64,000 nucleotides of DNA from Blattabacterium cuenoti (GTDB taxonomy: Bacteria > Bacteroidota > Bacteroidia > Flavobacteriales > Blattabacteriaceae), in contig NZ_CP059219.1 in NCBI RefSeq assembly GCF_014252395.1, positions 399,366-463,365 on the forward strand, read 5' to 3'. The notes below the pieces were generated by a model, which did not search any database, was not told where the DNA came from, and saw only the letters and a list, made by a program, of their open reading frames with translations. Numbering within the stretch: position 1 is the stretch's first letter; each line of letters begins with the position of its first letter. Position numbers and translations under genes: made by a program. Positions 13,645 through 38,574 of the stretch are shown one piece after another.

Positions 13645-13659
13645 ATGACTTTTTGTCAT
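13645..13659. promoter_or_regulatory. Dyad ATGAC-N5-GTCAT upstream of dnaK (candidate activator site)
   Basis: A perfect 5+5 inverted repeat with a TTTTT spacer lies about 107 bases upstream of the predicted dnaK transcription start. The same dyad with the same 5-base spacer occurs in this window only at 33172-33186 and 36514-36528, all between genes. Position and symmetry fit an upstream activator sequence for a Fis-type HTH dimer. The remaining gap between rplM and dnaK holds long T and A tracts (13661 onward) that could bend the DNA. Confidence 0.5.
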
Positions 13660-13732
13660 ATTTTTTTTTAAAAAAAAGTTTTTTATTGTCATAATTTTTA
13701 TATCATTTAATTTGAAAAGTGTTTTTTCATTA

Positions 13733-13748
13733 TGGCATAATGATTGTA
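13733..13748 (+). promoter_or_regulatory. Sigma54-like -24/-12 element upstream of dnaK
   Basis: TGGCATAATGATTGTA matches the -24 half (TGGCAC/T) and most of the -12 half (TTGCW) of the sigma54 consensus with the right spacing: GG at 13734-13735, ten bases, then GT where GC is expected. The mismatch is at the strongly conserved C, so this is weaker than the groS element. Predicted transcription start is near 13759, 22 bases before the dnaK ATG. No CIRCE element (TTAGCACTC dyad) is present. Confidence 0.42.
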
Positions 13749-13780: not shown

Positions 13781-15673
13781 ATGAGTAAAATTATAGGAAT
13801 AGATTTAGGCACAACAAATTCTTGTGTTGCTGTTATGGAAATAAATGATCCTATTGTTATTCCAAATTCGGAAGGAAAAAGGACAACTCCATCTATAGTA
13901 GCTTTTGTAGAAGGAGGAGAAAGAAAAATAGGAGATCCAGCAAAAAGACAAGCAGTAACTAATCCACAAAAAACAATATTTTCAATTAAACGTTTCATGG
14001 GAAGAATGTATTCAGAAGTTTCTGAAGAATTAAAACATATTCCTTATAAAGTAATTAAAGGTAGTAATAACACCCCTAGAGTAGATATAGAAAAAAGATT
14101 ATATGCTCCTCAAGAAATATCTGCTATGATTTTGCAAAAAATGAAAAAAACAGCTGAAGATTATTTAGGAGTAGAAATAAAAAAAGCTGTTATTACAGTT
14201 CCTGCTTATTTTAATGATGCACAAAGACAAGCCACTAAAGAAGCTGGAGAAATAGCAGGATTAAAAGTAGAAAGAATAATAAATGAACCAACAGCAGCAG
14301 CTTTAGCTTATGGATTAGATAAAAATAATCAAAATAAAAAAATAGTAGTATATGATTTAGGAGGAGGAACTTTTGATGTTTCTATTTTAGAATTAGGAGA
14401 TGGAGTTTTTGAAGTTCTTTCTACAAATGGAGATACTCATTTAGGAGGAGATGATTTTGATCAAATTATTATTGATTATTTAGCTAATGAATTTAAATCT
14501 AAAGAAGGATTAGATCTAAGAAAAGATCCTATGGCTTTACAACGTTTGAAAGAAGCTTCTGAAAAAGCTAAAATTGAATTATCATCTTCTAATCAGACAG
14601 AAATTAATCTACCATATATTACAGCTACAGAATCAGGACCTAAACATTTAGTAATAACCTTAACACGTTCAAAATTTGAACAATTATCATATAAGTTAAT
14701 ACAACGTTCTATTAAACCTTGTTCAAAAGCTTTAGAAGATGCTAATTTATCTACAAAAAATATAGATGAAGTTATTTTAGTAGGTGGATCTACTCGTATT
14801 CCAAAAGTACAAAAAGAAGTAGAAGATTTTTTTAAAAAAAAACCTTCTAAAGGAGTTAATCCAGATGAAGTAGTAGCAATTGGAGCTGCTATACAAGGAG
14901 GAGTTTTAACCGGAGATGTACAAAATGTATTATTATTAGATGTTACTCCTTTATCTTTAGGAATAGAAACTTTAGGAGGTGTTTTTACTAAACTTATTGA
15001 AGCTAATACTACTATTCCTACTAAAAAATCTGAAATTTTTTCCACAGCAGCAGATAATCAATCTGCAGTTACTATACGTGTTGGACAAGGAGAAAGATCT
15101 ATGTTTAATGACAATAAAGAAATAGGTAGATTTGATTTAGTAGATATACCACCAGCACCTAGAGGAATACCTCAAATAGAGGTTACATTTGATATAGATG
15201 CTAATGGAATTTTAAATGTTTCTGCTAAAGATAAAGGAACAGGAAAAGAACAATTTATACGTATTGAAACTTCTTCTGGATTAAATCAAGAAGAAATAGA
15301 AAAAATGAAAAAAGAAGCAAAAGAAAATGCAAAAAAAGATGAAAAAATTAAATCAGAAATAGATAAATTAAATGTAGCAGATAATCAAATATTTCAAACT
15401 GAAAAACAATTAAAAGATTATGGAAATAAATTATCTGATAATAATAAAAAAAATATAGAAAATTCTTTAGAAGAATTAAAAAAAGCGCATGCTAAAAAAG
15501 ATTTTGCATCTATTGATGTATGTATGAAAAAATTAAATGAATCTTGGACTAATGCTTCTCAAGATATTTATACAGCTACTAAAGCTAGTAAATCAGAAAA
15601 AAAAGAAAAAAAAGAAAATAATAATAAAGGAAATGAAAATGTACAAGATGTAGATTATGAAGAAGTAAAATAA
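13781..15673 (+). CDS. dnaK: Chaperone DnaK (Hsp70)
   Basis: DnaK is the ATP-dependent Hsp70 that folds and protects cytosolic proteins. The 630-residue protein is full length: the ATPase domain has [48 protein letters not shown] and [13 protein letters not shown]. The interdomain linker is [18 protein letters not shown], followed by the substrate-binding domain, the helical lid, and the C-terminal [10 protein letters not shown]. It stands alone, with no dnaJ or grpE next to it. It is preceded by a sigma54-like promoter and a dyad shared with groESL. The stop codon directly abuts the stop of psd on the other strand, with no spacer. Confidence 0.99.
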
Positions 15674-33171: not shown

Positions 33172-33186
33172 ATGACATAATGTCAT
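33172..33186. promoter_or_regulatory. Dyad ATGAC-N5-GTCAT upstream of the miaB operon
   Basis: ATGACATAATGTCAT is identical to the copy before groS, and flanking bases also match (TCATYTAATAT on the right). It lies 14 bases before the miaB ATG and overlaps a TATAAT at 33168-33173. There is no sigma54 element downstream of it. In this position a bound protein would more likely repress than activate, which suggests autoregulation by the activator encoded two genes in. The right half may be in the leader. Confidence 0.5.
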
Positions 33187-33199
33187 CTAATATAAAAAT

Positions 33200-34558
33200 A
33201 TGGAAAATAAAAAAAAAATTGATCATTCAAATAAAAATTTTTATATAGAAAATTTTGGATGTCAAATGAATATTTATGATAGTGAAATAGTAGCTTCTAT
33301 TTTATTAAAAAACGGTTTTTTTTTATCAAAAAATTTAGAAAAAACAAATATATTTTTGTTAAATTCTTGTTCTATACGAGAAAAAGCAGAATTAACAATA
33401 AAAAAAAGATTAAAAGAATTAAATTTTCTTAAAAAAAAGAATCAAACTATATTTATAATGATAGGGTGTTTTTCTAAAGAATTTAAAAAAATTCTTTTAG
33501 AAGAAAAAAAAATAGATTTATTTATAGATCCTGATTCTTACAAAAAAATTCCAAATTTTATAAATCATTTCATAAATAAAAAAAAATATTTTCATATTAC
33601 TAATATTTCTAAAGAAACATATGAAGATATATATCCATTTCATTTTAATAAAAAAAATAATATAACTGCATTTTTAAGTATAACAAGAGGATGTAATAAT
33701 ATGTGTACATTTTGTATAGTCCCCTTTACTAGAAAAAGAGAAATAAGTAGTAATCCATATTCTATCATAGATAAATGTAAATATTTATATAAAAATGGTT
33801 ACAAAGAAGTAACTCTTTTAGGACAAAATGTAGATTCTTATAAATGGGAAGGATTTTATGAAAAAAAAAAAATATTTATAGATTTTTCTAATCTATTAGA
33901 TATTTTAGCTAAAAAAATACCTTTTATGAGAATACGATTTTCTACATCTAATCCTCATGACATGTCTGATAAAGTATTAAAAATAATTTCTAAACACTCA
34001 AATATATGTAAACATATACATTTACCTGTTCAATCTGGAAGTAATAAAATACTAAAATTAATGAATAGAAAATATACACGTGAAAATTATCTTTCCTTAA
34101 TTAAAAAAATTAAAAAAATAATACCTAATTGTTCTATTTCTCATGATATTATAACAGGTTTTTGTAATGAAAAAGAAAAAGATCATCAAGATACAATTAG
34201 TTTAATGAATGAAGTTGTATATAATTATGGGTATATGTTCTCCTATTCACCAAGACCTAATACTTATGCATATAGAAAATTAGAAGATAATGTTCCTTCT
34301 TATATAAAAAAAAAAAGATTAAAAGAAATTATAGATTTACAAAGAGAACATTCATTTTTTAGAATGAAAGAATATTTATATAAAATACAAGAAGTTTTAA
34401 TAGAAGGAGAATCAAAAAAAAATAATAAATATTGGTATGGTAGAAATACTCAAAATATAGTTGTAGTTTTTCCAAAAAAAAATTCTAAAATAGGTGATAT
34501 AGTTTTTGTAAAAATAAAAGAAATTACATCTGCTACATTAATAGGAGAAATTCAATAA
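33200..34558 (+). CDS. miaB: tRNA-2-methylthio-N6-dimethylallyladenosine synthase
   Basis: MiaB is a radical SAM enzyme that thiomethylates i6A37 in tRNAs reading UNN codons, acting after MiaA (gene at 53293). The 452-residue product has the first cluster cysteines at 21, 57 and 90 (FGCQMNIYDSE, NSCSIREKAE, IGCFSK) and the radical SAM CXXXCXXC at Cys165, Cys169 and Cys172 (TRGCNNMCTFC). The C-terminal TRAM domain is present. Starts 14 bases after a dyad shared with the chaperone promoters. First gene of the run with the sigma54 activator, lptE and secG. Confidence 0.96.
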   Translation: MENKKKIDHSNKNFYIENFGCQMNIYDSEIVASILLKNGFFLSKNLEKTNIFLLNSCSIREKAELTIKKRLKELNFLKKKNQTIFIMIGCFSKEFKKILLEEKKIDLFIDPDSYKKIPNFINHFINKKKYFHITNISKETYEDIYPFHFNKKNNITAFLSITRGCNNMCTFCIVPFTRKREISSNPYSIIDKCKYLYKNGYKEVTLLGQNVDSYKWEGFYEKKKIFIDFSNLLDILAKKIPFMRIRFSTSNPHDMSDKVLKIISKHSNICKHIHLPVQSGSNKILKLMNRKYTRENYLSLIKKIKKIIPNCSISHDIITGFCNEKEKDHQDTISLMNEVVYNYGYMFSYSPRPNTYAYRKLEDNVPSYIKKKRLKEIIDLQREHSFFRMKEYLYKIQEVLIEGESKKNNKYWYGRNTQNIVVVFPKKNSKIGDIVFVKIKEITSATLIGEIQ

Positions 34559-34573
34559 GAAAAAATAAAAACT

Positions 34574-35815
34574 ATGGAATCTATCCAAAATATAAAAAAA
34601 AAATTTGGAATCATTGGATATGATTATGCTTTACATAGAGCTTTAGAAAAAGCATTACAAGTAGCTTTTACTGATATTTCAGTATTAGTTCTTGGAGAAA
34701 GTGGAGTAGGAAAAGAATTTATTCCAAAAATAATTCATCAATTTTCATATAGAAAACATCATTCTTATATTGCTGTTAATTGTGGTGCTATTCCAGAAGG
34801 AACTATTGATAGTGAACTTTTTGGACATGAAAAAGGTTCTTTTACTGGAGCTACAAGTATGCGAAAAGGTTATTTTGAAGGTGCTAATGGAGGAACTATA
34901 TTTTTAGATGAGGTAGGAGAACTTCCTTTAACTACACAAGTTCGTTTACTTAGAATTTTAGAATCAGGAGAATTTATTAAAGTAGGATCTTCAAAAATTC
35001 AAAAAACAGATATTAGAATTGTAGCAGCTACTAATTTAAATATGATAGAGGCTATACAAAAAGGAAAATTTAGAGAAGATTTATATTACCGTCTTAATAC
35101 TGTGCAGATTAATGTTCCTTCTTTACGTTTTCGTAAAAATGATATTAAATTTTTATTTAAAAAATTTTCTAATGATTTTGCGGAAAAATACCATATGCCT
35201 AAAATAACACTTACTAAAGAATCTATAAAATATTTAGAAAATTATTCTTGGCCTGGAAATATAAGGCAATTAAAAAATATTATTGAACAAATTTCAGTAG
35301 TAGAAACAGAACGAGAAATTACTATAGAAAAATTAAAAGAATATATTCCAGAAAATATTCCTTCTTTATCTTTTCCTAAAGATGAATCTTTTATTCATGA
35401 TTATTCCAGAGAAAGAGATTTTCTTTATAAAATTTTATTTGATATGAGAAAAAATCTTAATGATTTAAAAAATATTACTTATGAATTAATAAAAAATAAT
35501 TCAAATGCTAGATTTAGTGAAAAAAATCAAGAACTTATAGAAAAAGTTTTTGGGAAAAGAATAACTGCTAAAGATTCTATTTTTCAATTAGAAGATTCTT
35601 CTAAATCTTCCTCAGAAGAGGATTTAGATTATGAAGAAATAGAAGAAGATTTTTCAAAAAAAAATGAATTATATTCTTTTTCTTTGCAAGAACGAGAAAT
35701 AGAACATATTCAAAAAATTCTAAAAAAAAATTATGGAAAAAGAAAAAAAACAGCTAAAGAATTAGGAATTTCTGAGAGAACTCTTTATAGAAAAATAAAA
35801 CAATATGGATTATAA
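34574..35815 (+). CDS. Sigma54-dependent transcriptional activator, no sensory domain
   Basis: The protein is an enhancer-binding activator that remodels sigma54 RNA polymerase. The 413-residue product has only a short N-terminus of about 20 residues, then the AAA+ domain: Walker A GESGVGKE (41-48), the sigma54-contacting loop GSFTGA (88-93, variant of GAFTGA), Walker B TIFLDE (108-113) and the R-finger and sensor regions (REDLYYRLN, WPGNIRQLKNIIEQ). A linker rich in Asp/Glu follows. A Fis-type HTH ends it (KTAKELGISERTLYRKIKQY). No receiver, GAF or PAS domain is present. It is likely to bind the ATGAC-N5-GTCAT dyads before groS and dnaK; this is inference. Confidence 0.93.
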   Translation: MESIQNIKKKFGIIGYDYALHRALEKALQVAFTDISVLVLGESGVGKEFIPKIIHQFSYRKHHSYIAVNCGAIPEGTIDSELFGHEKGSFTGATSMRKGYFEGANGGTIFLDEVGELPLTTQVRLLRILESGEFIKVGSSKIQKTDIRIVAATNLNMIEAIQKGKFREDLYYRLNTVQINVPSLRFRKNDIKFLFKKFSNDFAEKYHMPKITLTKESIKYLENYSWPGNIRQLKNIIEQISVVETEREITIEKLKEYIPENIPSLSFPKDESFIHDYSRERDFLYKILFDMRKNLNDLKNITYELIKNNSNARFSEKNQELIEKVFGKRITAKDSIFQLEDSSKSSSEEDLDYEEIEEDFSKKNELYSFSLQEREIEHIQKILKKNYGKRKKTAKELGISERTLYRKIKQYGL

Positions 35816-36254
35816 ATTATTTTTTATTTATACATTTTTTTTTATTAGTTGTTATCAACCTACTTTTTATTCATTTTTTAGTCAAAAAAAAACTATAGAA
35901 ATTGGAGAATTTATAGAAAAAATAAATTTACCTGGAAGATCTATTTCTTTTGATTTTAAAAAAAGTTTAGAAACTTATATAATAAAACATGGTTATTCTA
36001 ATTTAGTATTAGAAAATGGAAATATTATTTTGGAAGGAATATTTTTAAATTGTACTATTAATAATTCATTTAAAAAAATTCAAATAATAACAAAAATTTT
36101 TTATAAAGATAATTTAGACCCTAAAAAAAATTGGGAAAAAAATTTTACTATTTCAGAAAATTATTATAAAGAAGATAATATTTTTTTAGATAAAACAATA
36201 GATGAAATTATAAAAAAATTAACAATTAAAGTATATAATAATATAATATTATAA
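35805..36254 (+). CDS. lptE: LptE-like LPS-assembly lipoprotein
   Basis: LptE plugs the LptD barrel in the outer membrane for LPS export. The 149-residue product has a lipoprotein signal ending in FFISC (Cys16), then IEKINLPGRSISFDFKKSLE and scattered beta-strand pattern as in Bacteroidota LptE proteins. Overall sequence conservation is weak, so the call rests on the lipobox, size and the conserved position between the sigma54 activator and secG. It overlaps the activator gene by 11 bases. Confidence 0.75.
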   Translation: MDYKLFFIYTFFFISCYQPTFYSFFSQKKTIEIGEFIEKINLPGRSISFDFKKSLETYIIKHGYSNLVLENGNIILEGIFLNCTINNSFKKIQIITKIFYKDNLDPKKNWEKNFTISENYYKEDNIFLDKTIDEIIKKLTIKVYNNIIL

Positions 36255-36265
36255 AATTATTGTTT

Positions 36266-36508
36266 ATGACAAATATATCTATTACTATATTTAGTTTATT
36301 TATTATAGTAACATGTATTTTATTTATACTAGTAATATTAATACAAAATCCAAAAAAAGAAAGTATAAATCAATATTTTATGGAAAAAAATTTTAGATTT
36401 TTTGGTATAAAAAGAACAAACACATTTTTAGAAAATATTACTTGGTTTTTATCTATTGTCATATTTTTTTTAATTTTTATTTTTAATTTTTTATTAAAAA
36501 CAAAATAA
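36266..36508 (+). CDS. secG: Protein-export membrane protein SecG
   Basis: SecG is a small accessory subunit of the SecYEG translocon. The 80-residue product has two membrane segments (about residues 5-27 and 56-76) with a short polar loop between, as in the family; the loop has IQNPKKESINQYF, the counterpart of the VLIQNPKGGGL-type motif. A TTG six bases upstream is in frame, but ATG at 36266 is preferred. It lies between lptE and groS. Confidence 0.83.
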   Translation: MTNISITIFSLFIIVTCILFILVILIQNPKKESINQYFMEKNFRFFGIKRTNTFLENITWFLSIVIFFLIFIFNFLLKTK

Positions 36509-36513
36509 TTATT

Positions 36514-36528
36514 ATGACATAATGTCAT
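36514..36528. promoter_or_regulatory. Dyad ATGAC-N5-GTCAT upstream of groESL
   Basis: ATGACATAATGTCAT is a perfect 5+5 inverted repeat, six bases after the secG stop. Its centre is about 76 bases upstream of the predicted sigma54 start, a normal distance for an enhancer site. The 15 bases and right flank are the same as at 33172-33186. An AT-rich stretch with A and T tracts separates it from the promoter and could help DNA looping. Confidence 0.55.
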
Positions 36529-36569: not shown

Positions 36570-36586
36570 TTGGCATGTTTTTGGCT
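36570..36586 (+). promoter_or_regulatory. Sigma54-type -24/-12 promoter of groESL
   Basis: TTGGCATGTTTTTGGCT has GG at 36572-36573, ten bases, then GC at 36584-36585, the invariant sigma54 arrangement. The -24 half TTGGCATG matches the consensus TTGGCACG at all but one base; the -12 half TGGCT differs from TTGCW at one. Predicted transcription start is near 36597, 32 bases before groS. A dyad AACGAT-N4-ATCGTT (36591-36606) covers that start. No CIRCE repeat is seen. Confidence 0.62.
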
Positions 36587-36628: not shown

Positions 36629-36910
36629 ATGGCGGAAGTAAAGATTAAACCTTTAGCGGATCGTGTTCTTATAGAACCAGATCCTGCTGAAACAAAAACA
36701 TCTTCAGGTATTATCATTCCTGATACTGCAAAAGAAAAACCACAAAAAGGAATTGTTATAGCGGTTGGAAAAGGAAAAAAAAATGAACCTATGATTCTAA
36801 AAGAAGGTGATAAAGTTTTATATGGAAAATATTCTGGAACAGAATTAAAATGGGAGGGAATAGAATATCTTATTATGAGAGAATCTGATATAATAGCTAT
36901 TATAAGGTAA
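36629..36910 (+). CDS. groS: Co-chaperonin GroES
   Basis: GroES caps the GroEL cavity. The 93-residue product has [20 protein letters not shown], the mobile loop ([19 protein letters not shown]), and the roof region, ending in the strand REDSII-like [10 protein letters not shown]. Length is normal. It is 20 bases upstream of groL and follows secG by 120 bases containing the sigma54-type control region. Confidence 0.98.
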
Positions 36911-36924
36911 ATTTATTAAATTAA

Positions 36925-38574
<1,650 letters not shown>

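Follow-up and report, generated by a model that had tools for sequence, protein, structure and literature searches.

The window analysed here, a 64,000-nucleotide stretch of the Blattabacterium cuenoti genome, carries the chaperone genes dnaK, groS and groL, together with an operon that starts with miaB and encodes a sigma54 activator (EBP). A short dyad precedes each of dnaK, miaB and groS, and -24/-12 promoters of the sigma54 type are situated between the dyad and the gene at dnaK and groS (Table 1). An exact scan for ATGAC-N5-GTCAT returned exactly three copies in the window, all of them intergenic and without a fourth, as the initial annotation had stated. The whole 626,430-bp genome likewise contained no fourth exact copy, so that no surplus of copies was seen outside the window, and a reversed-pattern control gave 0 matches genome-wide. 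The earlier estimate was roughly 0.05 chance matches; dinucleotide shuffles gave 0.02 copies per 64 kb, and none of 100 shuffles reached three. The copies before miaB and groS had been described as identical over 15 bases and in the right flank; the 15 bp are indeed identical (both ATGACATAATGTCAT), but the right flanks are merely similar (CTAATAT vs. TTAATAT). With up to two mismatches allowed, the window held 19 matches where 16.8 were expected, which is chance level, so within a single genome only near-perfect sites are informative.

Table 1. Features of the chaperone and activator loci. Positions are those of the window unless prefixed with C1 or L.
Feature	Position	Strand	Remarks
Putative EBP-binding dyad ATGACTTTTTGTCAT before dnaK	13645..13659	.	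TGACT-TTT-TGTCA, 7/8 to TGNCA-N3-TGNCA; near-invariant in genus
Extra half-site TGTCA between dnaK dyad and promoter	13687..13691	+	ATTGTCATA recurs there in most relatives
dnaK sigma54 -24/-12 promoter TGGCATAATGATTGT	13733..13747	+	TGGCATAATGATTG kept in nearly all relatives
dnaK	13781..15673	+	PF00012
Putative EBP-binding dyad ATGACATAATGTCAT directly before miaB	33172..33186	.	Proposed autorepression site
miaB, first gene of activator operon	33200..34558	+	TIGR01574 above cut-off; PF04055/PF00919/PF01938
Sole sigma54 activator (EBP) of genome	34574..35815	+	AAA+ from residue 13; Fis-type HTH 371-411
HTH_8 domain of EBP, proposed dyad reader	35684..35806	+	PF02954, residues 371-411
Putative EBP-binding dyad ATGACATAATGTCAT before groS	36514..36528	.	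Kept across genus
groSL sigma54 -24/-12 promoter TGGCATGTTTTTGGC (GG-N10-GC)	36571..36585	+	Kept in nearly all rpoN-bearing relatives
groS (GroES)	36629..36910	+	PF00166
groL (GroEL)	36931..38574	+	PF00118
Perfect site ATGTCATAATGTCAT before grpE	C1:92348-92362 (L009:12748-12762)		Outside window; sigma54 promoter TGGCAAATCTTTTGC 13 bp downstream
One-mismatch site TGACATTATGTCT with promoter TGGTATAATGTTTG before htpG (HSP90)	C1 ~123052-123098 (L011:3652-3698)	minus	

Promoter alignments were made for 61 members of the family, including 42 genomes from the genus itself. Relatives often carried ATGTCATAATGACAT, ATGACATAATGACAT or ATGCCATTATGGCAT at the corresponding dyad positions. Since the variable base is swapped in relatives, the constant part of the site is TGNCA-N3-TGNCA, and ATGAC-N5-GTCAT was rejected as too strict a description of it. 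The broader consensus has three matches in the genome, all intergenic, and these precede grpE, miaB and groS; the dnaK site departs from it at a single position. This consensus, the addition of grpE and htpG as members outside the window, and the differing layout of the miaB site all go beyond the initial annotation, in which grpE and htpG were absent, and these two genes therefore serve as an independent check on the site. A scan for sigma54 promoters alone yielded 632 sites above threshold, 12 of which were intergenic and near a start; used alone it was rejected as too noisy, and specificity requires combination with the dyad. When promoter and dyad were ranked together over the intergenic DNA of the genome, groS, grpE and dnaK took the first three places and htpG the fifth. 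The groSL promoter by itself is the second-best sigma54-like site of the genome, and it becomes the best once combined with its dyad. In four free-living genomes the strict dyad plus promoter pattern gave few matches, two of which, in a genome of 3.5 Mb, immediately precede dnaK and groES.

In the present genome the dyad lies upstream of the -24/-12 promoter by 13 bp at grpE and htpG, 43 bp at groS and 74 bp at dnaK. The dnaK, groS and miaB sites are kept in related strains, and throughout the genus the groS and dnaK promoters persist at every locus that retains the dyad. A perfect grpE site was present in 29 of 30 relatives, 28 of which also fit the TGGCA promoter pattern. Some observations at these sites count against the explanation that we favour below. 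The -12 element at dnaK reads TTGT or TTGG, not TTGC. The htpG site is kept in about half of the relatives and is eroded in many. Finally, one relative (G056, locus L162) has neither dyad nor sigma54 promoter upstream of groES, yet it retains the EBP, rpoN and the dnaK site.

The miaB operon had been noted as encoding the only sigma54 activator of the window, and this protein proved to be the sole EBP of the whole genome. Its AAA+ sigma54-interaction domain (PF00158, E=5e-65) aligns with the Walker motifs GESGVGKE and TIFLDE and the loop G(A/S)FTGA. It thus combines the features of a bacterial EBP: PF00158 with Walker A/B and GAFTGA, a C-terminal Fis-type HTH, and a sigma54 in the same genome, encoded by a single rpoN (PF04552 at C1:523491-523964). 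Residues 394-408 of the HTH region (A-ELGIS-RTLYRKI) are nearly invariant among 20 orthologues. No N-terminal sensor domain, neither receiver nor GAF, precedes the AAA+ domain. The protein scored under the cut-off for every named EBP family tested, including the equivalogs of PspF (TIGR02974, 265.8 vs. 443.6 bits; NF008622, 201.9 vs. 529) and of NtrC/NifA (TIGR01818, 303.7 vs. 558.6; TIGR01817, 296.2 vs. 528.9). A structure model of moderate quality (pLDDT 74.5) has a fold resembling the AAA+ domains of NtrC1 and FleQ and is uninformative on the signal, which is likely to be protein-folding stress.

EBP and rpoN are single-copy genes that are retained together, in every genome sampled from the genus itself and in several small-genome relatives. 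In three other genera (g4, g8 and g9) rpoN is absent, as is the EBP save for one remnant in g4, and no dyad above 6/8 and no promoter pattern was found in 28 regions from these genera (groES 10, dnaK 13, grpE 5). The loss of EBP and rpoN may represent few independent events. The EBP remnant, decayed and with an internal stop, is in genome G003 (C1:18715-19521), which has no rpoN and also carries a decayed remnant of htpG (C3:180439-181469).

Orthologues of the EBP, with ~60% identity over the whole protein, are widespread in the order (74 of 79 genomes). Their gene lies downstream of miaB in 19 of 20 longer loci examined, and named genomes with an orthologue extend from Flavobacterium to Pedobacter, Chitinophaga and Dyadobacter. 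Among free-living Bacteroidota a perfect site stood before miaB in 46/50 loci (0.14 in shuffles; reversed control 0) and before groES in 27/40 (0.14 in shuffles), and a dnaK site of at least 7/8 was present in 18/19 loci (1.4 in shuffles). In most Bacteroidales loci the EBP gene is not linked to miaB and has no perfect dyad close by. The putative activator-enhancer pair is conserved in the greater part of the sampled phylum.

Among the free-living relatives, the groES and dnaK dyads stand ~12 to 76 bp away from the -24 box, and these distances fall into clusters at 12, 23, 33, 43, 54, 64 and 75. A free search over periods of 3-20 bp gave a best period of 10.5-10.6 bp (R=0.755, Rayleigh z=28.5, n=50), while 300 control patterns without TGNCA-like halves reached a z of at most 8.4. 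The phasing persisted with unique distances only (R=0.69, p ~1e-6) and was weaker when the data were collapsed to gap clusters (n=16, p ~2e-3). Such phased distances are expected of an activator that touches promoter-bound polymerase over short DNA. The dyad is thus placed as an enhancer would be: ahead of a -24/-12 promoter, at variable distances, and preferentially on one face of the helix.

We consider it very probable that the dyads are enhancers of the miaB-linked EBP, through which it switches on the core chaperone genes, while its own operon is probably repressed. What the sequence itself shows are the sites and promoters, the presence of one EBP and one rpoN, the conservation, the co-loss and the phasing; from these we infer that the EBP binds the dyads. 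In the proposed mechanism the EBP would bind TGNCA-N3-TGNCA via its Fis-type HTH, and the dyad-bound protein would assemble an AAA+ ring. This ring would then remodel RNA polymerase-sigma54 at the TGGCA-N6-TTG promoters of groSL, dnaK, grpE and htpG, and EBP bound to the miaB dyad would repress the operon that encodes it. Conservation in genus and phylum, sigma54 promoters at the chaperone sites, co-loss with rpoN and activator, and helical phasing together lend strong support to the earlier suggestion that the two chaperone loci and the activator operon share a regulatory role.

The miaB site differs from the others in that no sigma54 promoter was found there by the scan. In free-living relatives the miaB dyad is followed after 8-21 bp by a housekeeping -7 box, TAnnTTTG (44 of 46 loci), and a -33 TTG is usually located inside the second half-site, so that the dyad overlaps the -33 to -7 stretch. 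No TAnnTTTG promoter can be made out ahead of miaB in the present genome, and the argument for repression is drawn from the loci of relatives. Because a sigma54 promoter is missing at miaB and the dyad overlaps the housekeeping promoter of relatives, binding of the EBP probably represses its own operon. The EBP might instead, without any repression, activate the housekeeping promoter or a weak sigma54 promoter, which could lie downstream and have escaped the scan. We regard this as unlikely, since a dyad that contains the -33 TTG, with the TAnnTTTG box close by, occupies a typical repressor position, and autorepression of a similar kind is reported for PspF (PMC3709507).

As the link between EBP and dyad is indirect, the dyads could also be the target of another stress regulator, such as a repressor, whose sites coincide with sigma54 promoters by accident. 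This is improbable, given that the site fronts the operon of the EBP itself in nearly all of the free-living miaB loci and vanishes where EBP and rpoN vanish. The phasing to the -24 box over distances up to ~76 bp fits an enhancer-bound activator, and one EBP alone serves the one sigma54 of the genome. A 5-bp stem with a 5-base loop could alternatively act in the transcript as an RNA hairpin or terminator, and the dyad upstream of the groES promoter does lie within a terminator-like hairpin (TGCCAGC...GCTGGCATTTTTT) in many of the free-living relatives, among them loci L263, L265, L281, L282 and L283. We rejected this reading as very improbable: at groS, dnaK, grpE and htpG the dyad is upstream of the promoter and hence outside the transcript, the variable bases are often unpaired (T/T in 22 and C/T in 22 of 77 free-living sites), and helical phasing has no RNA explanation. 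Chance likeness of AT-rich intergenic DNA, with which the ordinary number of two-mismatch sites would agree, is already refuted by the rarity of exact matches (0.02 expected), the conservation over the phylum and the out-of-sample recovery of grpE and htpG.

In other bacteria these chaperone genes are controlled by sigma32, HrcA/CIRCE, CtsR or HspR, in contrast to the sigma54 and enhancer-binding activator proposed here. On inspection the dyads, 5+5 with a 5-base spacer, did not match the CIRCE/HrcA operator with its 9-bp repeat and 9-bp spacer. In Flavobacterium psychrophilum, sigma54 (SM4) promoters have been mapped at groES-groEL, dnaK, grpE-dnaJ and htpG, and also at lon and clpB; the activators were left open, with three candidate PF00158 proteins, and no binding site was reported (PMC9723704). 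The chaperone gene set is common to that species and Blattabacterium; promoters alone were described there, whereas an activator and its site are proposed here. A 2025 survey of sigma54 regulons reported chaperones as enriched among predicted targets in Bacteroidota, most of all in Flavobacteriia, and stated that EBP-promoter specificity was not available for every organism covered; the portions of its text that were searched mention neither an enhancer motif nor a link to a miaB-linked EBP (PMC12316311). No description of the activator or its site was found in the open-access literature searched. Chaperone sigma54 promoters in Bacteroidota are thus known, and what we propose as new is the activator-enhancer pair with its unusual role.

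The proposal names an activator and a site, supplies a testable consensus, and predicts a regulon. The genome paper of Walczuchella suggested nitrogen control as the role of rpoN (PMC3971599); the sole EBP of the present genome points to chaperones instead, and chaperone control offers a reason for the retention of rpoN in tiny endosymbiont genomes. A wider and more tentative possibility, which we hold to be somewhat less probable than its opposite, is that throughout Bacteroidota the core chaperones may be under the command of a single sigma54 activator that lacks a sensor and whose gene neighbours miaB and is close to groES. This master regulator would repress itself, become active once a negative partner (possibly the chaperones themselves) releases it, and be the main reason why Blattabacterium, Uzinura and Walczuchella keep rpoN.

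The nearest parallel is PspF and the psp system of Escherichia coli, which has in common with our proposal a sensor-less EBP, HTH-bound enhancers, a stress regulon and negative autoregulation (PMC3709507). The two differ in the operon, which in Blattabacterium is miaB-EBP-...-secG-groES, in the regulon, which here would consist of core chaperones and not psp, and in the linker of the EBP, which is longer in Blattabacterium and contains a conserved helix. This helix (residues 277-307, window positions 35402-35494) lies between the AAA+ and HTH domains, has the conserved sequence E-R-ILYKVLFDM-DLNDLKKLT, matches no Pfam model, and is a possible docking or oligomer surface.
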